A DNA stretch of 64,000 bases from Lineus longissimus (taxonomy: Eukaryota; Nemertea; Pilidiophora; Heteronemertea; Lineidae): assembly GCF_910592395.1 (NCBI RefSeq), contig NC_088324.1:14224953-14288952 (forward strand). Reading direction: 5' to 3'. The notes beneath the pieces were generated by a model. That model saw only the letters and a list, made by a program, of their open reading frames with translations, did not search any database and was not told the origin of the DNA. Within the stretch, counting starts at the first letter, position 1; each line of letters opens with the position of its first letter. Below are positions 43,301-46,300 of the stretch, in pieces. Made by a program: the position numbers and the translations under genes.

Positions 43301-46300
43301 TGTTAGTCAATGCCTTGGTTTTATTGAAACCTGTTCTCATTTGTCATATTTTCTGTCCCGAATCAGGTCAAGACCCAACTGGTAACATGTTATGATTTGA
43401 GGTTGAAAATGAAAAAAATTGATGAACAATTTTATTTGTGGTTTGATTTACAACACGTGAGGCAAAATATTTTTTCTGGGGGGGGGGGGGGGTTGTGGGT
43501 CACATGTTGATCTTTGTTGTTTGTAGTGTTTTTTGTCACATTATTTGATGTTACTTTTGCCAGTTTTGTTGCATGAACTGTCTGTTCTGCCGTGAAAATG
43601 TGTGAATTTGTGGCAGACGTCAAAAAGCTGTCTCTGAAGTTGGTCAGACTGGCAGTGGTGATGGTCAGACTGGCAGTAGTGATGGTCAGACTGGCAGTAG
43701 TGATGGTCAGACTGGCAGTAGTGATGGTCAGACTGGCAGTAGTGATGGTCAGACTGGCAGTAGTGATGGTCAGGTGACATTGTGACCATGTGGTCATGGT
43801 CCCTGGTACAAAAGTCATGTCCCTGTTGTGAGTTGTTGTGTGTATTGTACGTTTTCATATAGTTTTTTTTGACAAATGCCTTCAAAGGATTAAAGTTTTC
43901 TATTTGTAATTTAGATTTTTCCTGTTGCTGGCCTCAAATTTAAAAGTCATTAGAGCCATTTTGGCCTGAGGTACTGGAAAATAGGGGTTTTCCGTAGGTC
44001 ATTGGTCATGGGTAAAGTTGGCAGGTACAGAAAGTGATTTCCTACATATATGTTACCCTGCTACTATGGAGAGCTCTCCCTTTCATGAAAGGTGGTGCAA
44101 AAGAGTTCTGGCTTGTCTTGACAGCCAAGAATTCTTGTACTTGCAGGTCATTCGAAGAGGCTGGCTGACCAACCACAACATTGGCTTCATGAAGGCGAAG
44201 GATTTCTGGTTTGTCTTGACGGCCGAGAATCTCTCGTGGTATAAGGAACAGGAGGTAAAGTTTTGCGTCATTCTTTTCATTCCAGGTCATCAGAAGAGGC
44301 TGGCTGACCAATCACAATGTTGGATTCATGAAAGGTGGCTCGAAGGAGTTCTGGTTTGTTTTAACTGCGGAGAATCTCTCGTGGTATAAGGACCAAGAGG
44401 TAAATCACCAGATGGTTTGTCGTCTTCACACAAAAGTTCTCCTGATTATGAGCCTGCCCCTCAAACCACTTTGCACTCCTTTAACGTCTGGTATGGAGGG
44501 GAGGTAATATTCTCAAGGTATCATTGTCATGATGTTGTGCAAATCTTTCAGTCCTTCAAACGATAGAGTGGTAAGATTAGGTAAAATTTACATCGTAGAG
44601 AGCACCAGGCAGCACACATCTATGCGCACAGAAGCTATAGTTGAAATGGGGATATGATTGTACCACCCTACCTTACATGTTGTATTCCAATTTCAGGAGA
44701 AGGAACAAAAATACAACTTGCCTTTAGATGGTTTGAAGATTCGTGATGTCGACAGTGGATTTTTGAGCAGGAGGCCGACATTTTGCATCTTCCATGATGA
44801 TAAGCATAAGTAAGGGTGCTGGTGTTGTTAAAATCATGTCTTTATCATAATTTTTCAGGAAAAAGAACAAAAATATGTCCTGCTTTTGGACGGTATGAAG
44901 ATTCGCGAAGTTGACGGTGGATTCATGTCCAGTAAAAAGCGTTCGTTTGTTATATTTAATGAGGATAAACACAAGTAAGACATTGGTACTGTGGTTGATC
45001 ATCCTGAAACATCTTGCCGATTGTGCCTAGGTTTAATCATGAGGACTTTCTTGGCGCTGGTGGCTGTGACAATTCCTATCTTTCTTGGACAATTGGCAAC
45101 TGAGTCACCATTTAGCTTCATGAGTTGTAGCGATTCACGATGTTTCAGGACCAGGCCATGATCATCAGTACTGTTTTGTAGCAAATCATATCTTGTCTTA
45201 TTATCTTGCTTGCATGGTGCTAAAGTGTAGGAGTTAGGCTTTCCAATCATCATCACTTTCTTAACCATACAGTACACAAAAAGGACCCTAACTTTCCAGG
45301 CAGACACTGTCTGTGGCGCAATAGTGTAATCAGTCTTCGTCTTTTCTATCTCATTCTCTCAAGCATGCCGTATAGTTTGATGTAAAGCATGCATCTTTCA
45401 CTCAAAAAACTGCCTTGGTCTTTGAACAAGTAGACCAGATCTCATACCTCAGTGCAGTCTCCCATTACATTCAATGGTGAGAGTATCTCGTACCTCAGTG
45501 CAGTCTCCCATTACATTCAATGGTGAAAGTATTTCGTACCTCAGTGCAGTCTCCCATTACATTCAATGGTGAGAGTATCTCGTACCTCAGTGCGGTCTCC
45601 CATTACATTCAATGGTGAGAGTATTACTACAAAAACTGAAGAAGCCGCTCCATGCAAGTCTGATAATAAGTCATTGAGTTCCCAGTAACTGAACTAACAC
45701 AATAAAACTTGAGAGAAACAGTAGTTGCTTTTCATTTTTCACCGTTTTAACAAAATTTCTGTAACTGCTTGCATGCTTTTTGTCCCCTTATGACAGGTGC
45801 ACTTGCTGTGATTTTTGCTCATGGTGGCCATTGCAGCACCTACGATACACGGCAAAAATCACATGAAAGTGTCCACCACCTGTGCTGTGAATGTGATTTT
45901 CAGCGTGAGGCAATCTGTAGCTGCAATCGTGTCATGTGGCAAGAATTTCAGTGTGTGTGTGTGACATTTGTCAAGCATTCATCAAGTATTCGTTTGCCGA
46001 TTCTGGTGTCTCATTCTCAGAGTATATTTTTGGCGCTCTTTGTGAGTTTCAACGGCTCAGTGAGAAAATCTTTTGTGTTTGTGTGGTGTGTCCCTTTTGA
46101 ACTGATAAAGCTGCGTCATCCATAGGATTTGTTGTCACTCCTTACAGTTAGCGTGACATTCACTTTAGAGTAGAACCAGATGATCAAATCTCATTCAATA
46201 CACACAAGGTAGGTTCAACTGTACTGTGCTAATCTCCCTACTGCCAACATGTTTTTCCAGGAATGTTTACAAAGACTACAAAACCCTGGAGCTGTCCGCA

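Follow-up and report, generated by a model that had tools for sequence, protein, structure and literature searches.

The dynamin gene of the bootlace worm, Lineus longissimus, carries duplicated exons for its PH domain, and these are very probably spliced one copy per pair, with the joining of the two copies of the first PH exon (A and B) blocked physically and that of the two copies of the second (C and D) blocked by the reading frame, B being the default copy and A one with an altered loop. The original prediction, which was made on the window (the whole stretch of 64,000 nucleotides that was analysed; all features below lie on its forward strand), held A and B to be mutually exclusive, and this is supported by the ten database models read, each of which has only one of the two copies, with both copies in use. 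Four features had been missed: the C/D pair, a further pair in the GED (E/F), what is left of a third copy of the first PH exon, and a 12-nt microexon.

Three doubled exons in a classical dynamin gene

The locus encodes a dynamin, with the PH part at the predicted place, and its exons agree in sequence with the 'dynamin-1-like isoform X..' models of Lineus longissimus in the protein database. As modelled, the coding region (31397-50038) encodes GTPase, stalk, PH, GED and a proline-rich tail in 22 exons (both copies of every pair counted, the microexon excluded), with GT and AG at every internal boundary. The analyst chose the last exon (50012-50038), and none of the ten Lineus models read ends there. 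Pfam recognised PF00350, PF01031, PF00169 and PF02212 in the Lineus models, and the proline-rich tail was recognised by eye; the gene is a classical dynamin, with GTPase, middle/stalk, PH and GED as well as the tail. Two copies each exist of the first PH exon, the second PH exon and a GED exon, and all eight spliced combinations of A or B, C or D and E or F are open, at 828-833 aa with the 3′ end chosen by the analyst. The exon at 46261-46393, which encodes the last part of the PH domain, is shared by all ten models.

A genome search with the PH-GED protein (391,118,348 bases in 30 contigs, best candidates only) listed 12 matches, ten of them at the dynamin locus. On contig 7 the match covers the GED part only, at 37% identity, and going by this sequence we take it for a Drp1-type relative; contig 2 has a weak match. 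None of the matches listed points to another place in the genome where a dynamin PH and a GED occur together, and Lineus longissimus, whose published assembly is given as 391 Mb in 32 scaffolds (PMC8593623), seems to have no classical dynamin gene other than this one.

Exon A (44147-44254; 108 nt, 36 codons) is used in models X6 and X7 and has a VL1 loop two residues shorter than the canonical loop of exon B (44286-44399; 114 nt, 38 codons), which is used in models X1-X5, X8, X10 and X11. Both exons are multiples of three with phases 0-0, and each has its own splice sites, specifically an acceptor ending in CTTGCAG and a donor GTAAAG for A, and an acceptor ending in ATTCCAG and a donor GTAAAT for B. 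Indeed, the predicted coordinates, matching phases and usable splice sites were all found exactly in place, as was the 31-base spacer (44255-44285, 31 nt as measured), which holds the donor of A, the acceptor of B and the sole close branch-point candidates for B. A and B are therefore what is expected of an exon cluster that arose by tandem duplication, namely adjacent homologous exons with equal phases and splice sites of their own.

The resemblance of either copy to the dynamin PH domain far exceeds what chance would give, with E values of 5e-16 (B) and 3e-12 (A) in a tblastn search with a human dynamin-1 sequence and of 3e-20 (B) and 3e-15 (A) in a genome search with the Lineus query. Splice sites were scored with a matrix that was built from the gene's other sites (15 donors and 14 acceptors) and is hence self-favouring; donor and acceptor reach 5.6 and 8.3 in A, and 7.2 and 12.9 in B. 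On this small matrix the gene's other sites range from 5.7 to 13.0 (donors) and from 9.3 to 16.1 (acceptors), and both sites of A sit slightly under these ranges. The PH exon pairs are flanked by tandem repeat arrays in the introns, at 43641-43773 (21-nt unit, 6.3 copies) and 45439-45624 (46-nt unit, 4.0 copies).

The variants of the second PH exon, C (44697-44809; 113 nt; models X2, X5 and X7) and D (44859-44974; 116 nt; models X1, X3, X4, X6, X8, X10 and X11), both leave a remainder of two on division by three, differ in residue at 13 of 37 aligned codons and are separated by a 49-nt spacer between the donor of C and exon D (44810-44858). In the GED, the variant exon E (46661-46807; model X3 only of the ten) and the canonical exon F (47387-47539; eight of ten models) lie 579 nt apart, have lengths that are multiples of three and differ in residue at 22 of 49 aligned codons. 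The acceptor of F is weak on the small matrix (2.2), yet F is the copy that most models use.

Directly before the PH domain lies the 12-nt microexon (43112-43123; CAG-GCCAGAATGCAG-GTATAG), which encodes ARMQ and is found in six of the ten models, all of B type (6/8 B models, 0/2 A models). At the ARMQ position, two of three rows of Tubulanus have LKFQ, and vertebrate dynamin has the residues DEIL or GEIL.

Probable splicing of one copy per pair

The Lineus isoforms are NCBI-named database annotation models, of which ten were read (X1-X8, X10 and X11; X9 was left out, and models beyond X11 may exist). At the level of reads, PMC5740500 asks of mutually exclusive exons that each copy have bridging reads and that no reads join the two copies; the exclusivity described here is that of the models. 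ARMQ+B, D and F are combined in X1, X8 and X10, B, D and F in X4, ARMQ+B, D and E in X3, ARMQ+B, C and F in X2, B, C and F in X5, A, D and F in X6, and A, C and F in X7; X11 has ARMQ+B and D, without E or F. Exactly one of A and B is present in 10/10 models (A in two, B in eight), none of the ten having both or neither, and the same is true of C and D (C in three, D in seven). All four pairings occur, namely A+C (X7), A+D (X6), B+C (X2 and X5) and B+D (six models). With E in one model, F in eight and neither in X11, the GED pair is looser than A/B and C/D, being guarded neither by a short spacer nor by the reading frame.

Since A and B joined would remain in frame, their exclusivity rests on the spacer. 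About 50 nt are needed from donor to branch site in mammalian work, where a reduction from 50 to 35 nt abolished spliceosome assembly on one test pre-mRNA (PMC6692369), and this rule may differ in this worm. In the A-B spacer, UnAy motifs lie 15 and 24 nt from the donor of A, and the sole full yUnAy motif is just 6 nt from the AG; in the C-D spacer, UnAy candidates lie 26-40 nt from the donor of C. Both pairs thus have donor-branch distances under about 50 nt, for branch points that are candidates by motif match only, and the shortest other intron in the gene is 102 nt long. No inverted repeats of at least 12 nt (9-base seed) that might serve as pairing RNA elements were found in 43900-45000.

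Splicing would then choose a single copy from each of the pairs A/B and C/D. In the case of A/B the block would be physical, as the candidate branch points for B, at 15-24 nt from the donor of A, would not allow A to be joined to B, and such a steric block is likely in Lineus; when the sites of A are left unused, B would be joined straight to the upstream exon. In the case of C/D the block would mainly be one of reading frame: when C and D are joined, or both skipped, the frame is broken and stops follow early. Only C/D are kept apart in this manner, the lengths of A/B and E/F being multiples of three. The proposal that the 31-base spacer enforces exclusivity is thus likely right for A/B, although the gene has more than this one device. 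B is probably the default copy and A a regulated alternative, given the stronger splice sites of B and the conserved GGS in its loop.

In alpha-tropomyosin, too, the donor of the upstream copy lies too near the branch point of the downstream copy (PMC6692369); the Lineus case differs in that the A-B spacer is only 31 nt overall and its branch points are candidates. Among classical dynamin genes, vertebrate DNM1 and DNM2 also have a mutually exclusive homologous pair, 10a/10b (PMC9652393, PMC2916854), and the original prediction, too, had named a vertebrate alternative cassette in the middle domain; 10a/10b form a 46-residue stretch of that domain, whereas the Lineus pairs lie in PH and GED. 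The pair is absent from invertebrate dynamin according to PMC2916854, and the homologous Lineus segment gave a single match (38365-38511), the middle-domain exon not being doubled. Exon 12b of DNM2 in muscle, which encodes 10 residues between PH and stalk, and exon 13b are alternative in-frame exons as well (PMC9652393). Unlike replacement copies, they are insertions that are included or skipped, and the ARMQ microexon of Lineus is their closer analogue.

The VL1 loop, its relatives and the origin of the pairs

Between A and B the residues differ by I/V, by KAKD/KGGSKE and by E/D, so that the loop of A retains F, M and K and has lost two glycines. In an alignment to human dynamin-1, with loop numbering after PDB chain 6dlu_B, the F of exon B corresponds to residue 533 and the glycines missing from A to residues 536-537; therefore, the shortening lies inside VL1, which we take to extend over 531-537. 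The loop had correctly been described as shortened, but it had been placed next to the loop that inserts into the membrane, and the change in fact falls within the residue-533 loop itself. VL1 inserts in the membrane, and the I533A mutation blocks endocytosis (PMC9653092). GGS is retained in at least 90% of the rows of a 37-row dynamin alignment (two of which are A-type), and among 124 fetched proteins the shortened-loop pattern was seen in the two A-type Lineus models only. With two residues fewer, the loop of A probably changes the depth or strength with which dynamin engages the membrane.

AlphaFold2 structures were set aside as evidence on the loop because of their low confidence over the PH domain. 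Full-length predictions with 37-row alignments had a mean pLDDT of 57.2 (P0002, A/C/F) and 54.9 (P0009, ARMQ+B/D/F), and in both models nearly the whole PH region was under 50.

For comparison with other species, a first protein search supplied the best 120 of 4358 matches, two of which (P0057 and P0075) were unmatched in a row-by-row listing. Searches with exon A (plus a few flanking residues) and exon C had 14 and 12 candidates, respectively, and required exact shared 5-residue words. Species were counted over 87 of the 124 fetched proteins, from the 26 species or hybrids that had two or more rows and were assigned from the listing, the other 37 rows being single for their species or without a species name. 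The patterns used for the count do not separate unmatched rows, and one Littorina row failed the post-GED pattern; a database row may also represent several isoforms (nine in P0012), and forms of Tubulanus may be hidden in this way.

Among these 26 species or hybrids, the first PH exon varies in Lineus only. The second has two versions in Lineus, three in Haliotis rufescens, three in Gigantopelta aegis, two in H. asinina and one in 21 others; in Tubulanus it shows variation at its end, not an alternative copy. The three gastropods thus resemble Lineus in having two or three versions of the C/D segment and differ from it in having a single version of the first PH exon in the rows read. Of the 14 proteins in the exon A search, only the Lineus models X6 and X7 had A-type sequence, and the exon C search listed Lineus only (10 proteins). 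The original prediction knew of no dynamin with a duplicated PH exon and suggested looking for the same pair in related species. The former fails for the second PH exon and, within the searches made, holds for the first; the protein rows of relatives contain alternative second PH exons in three gastropods and the A-type in none. In the part of the open-access literature on dynamin exons and isoforms that was consulted, no report of a dynamin with duplicated PH exons was found. Duplication of the second PH exon in lophotrochozoans is, judging from these rows, either recurrent or old; the A/B pair is so far confined to Lineus.

Some protein models carry two copies of a segment at once, namely of the second PH exon in Elysia crispata and of the GED in Paralvinella palmiformis and in Tubulanus, where all three rows read for Tubulanus polymorphus have both GED copies in one protein. 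A dynamin-2-like model of Alosa pseudoharengus (P0010) has two whole PH domains in tandem, which may be real or mis-predicted. Two Littorina saxatilis rows (P0026 and P0072) differ in a short stretch after the GED, and in the Elysia crispata model P0037 two versions of the post-GED stretch follow one another, which may point to a further duplicated exon in the dynamins of gastropods.

C shares SR(R/H)PTF with one gastropod type of second PH exon, and D has SKK like another. An origin of the C/D pair older than the phyla, as these motifs might suggest, was considered and obtained no support from a tree (31 rows, 37 columns; its input of 32 hand-picked proteins out of the 124 left out Paralvinella, whose row lacks the exon end), in which C and D of Lineus group together (99/97) instead of pairing off with separate gastropod types. 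Placing C with one of these types changes the log-likelihood by -11.5 and is not rejected (p-AU 0.106), and the relation of C/D to the gastropod types is compatible both with independent duplication and with homogenisation.

Over their 36 aligned codons, A and B show 11 synonymous and 4 nonsynonymous differences (dN 0.047, dS 0.94, dN/dS about 0.05), and as these differences are mostly silent, exon A is under purifying selection and is not a dying copy. That A might be dead was likewise rejected, since its frame and splice sites are intact and the silent-site bias is kept. Silent sites are near saturation in C versus D (pS 0.90) and E versus F (pS 0.99). Small tandem duplications would have given rise to all three pairs. 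For A/B the duplicated unit consists of the exon with about 16 nt upstream and about 5 nt downstream, with a period of 145 nt, and as this unit barely exceeds the exon, it is the duplication itself that left so short a spacer. The first PH exon has a third copy as well, a relic truncated at both ends, which lies at 44082-44132 and is 80% identical to B over 51 nt. Its differences from B number 3, 0 and 7 by codon position, which points to a former coding constraint on a copy that now lacks both ends; as a working exon it was rejected, no acceptor or donor being recognised by eye.

Alternative explanations and significance

It is improbable that A is dispensable or decaying, B being always used and the A models stemming from open-reading-frame annotation or rare mis-splicing. 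Such an explanation would fit the weaker splice sites of A, its loss of the otherwise conserved GGS, the decayed copy next to it, its presence in just two of ten models and its absence from every other species searched, but a decaying exon would not be expected to show the strong silent-site bias of A against B, to keep an intact frame and intact splice sites, or to appear in two models with different second PH exons (D in X6, C in X7). More improbable still is that A and B behave as ordinary cassettes, at times included together or skipped together, which would make their exclusivity a matter of statistics. Double inclusion or skipping would indeed keep the frame, both exons being multiples of three, and the GED pair does show looseness of this sort (X11 skips both copies, and the Tubulanus polymorphus rows carry both); however, no model of the ten has both or neither of A and B, an A-B intron of 31 nt would be shorter than even the 35-nt donor-branch distance that abolished assembly (PMC6692369), and skipping would remove the first third of the PH domain.

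Finally, tandem near-copies can in principle arise from mis-joined haplotypes, and the probability that the copies are such an assembly artefact is close to nil: 15 of the 36 codons aligned between A and B are different, the models use each copy, the gene contains three pairs that have diverged to different degrees, and the assembly is described as having a contig N50 of 10 Mb and 79-fold long-read coverage (PMC8593623). One-per-pair splicing of duplicated PH exons is thus the preferred reading.

Within the searches made, a duplicated first PH exon is new with the A/B pair, and duplicated PH exons in general are already seen in gastropods, where, as in Lineus, isoform models differ in the PH domain. 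VL1 has hitherto been studied by point mutation (I533A; PMC9653092), and Lineus appears to carry two natural versions of the loop and to choose between them by splicing, C/D providing another switch in the exon that adjoins the VL1 exon. The 31-nt spacer also provides a clean natural test case for the steric model of mutually exclusive splicing. A more tentative idea, possible though rather doubtful, is that the combinations of A/B, C/D and E/F with the optional ARMQ let one dynamin gene tune the VL1 loop, the adjoining PH surface and the GED helix separately, so that splicing would do the work of three paralogous genes in vertebrates; the A form would then be a naturally occurring dynamin with weak insertion which, mixed into helices, would determine how easily these cut membranes. 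If one copy per pair is spliced, one gene could make several differently tuned membrane-cutting dynamins.
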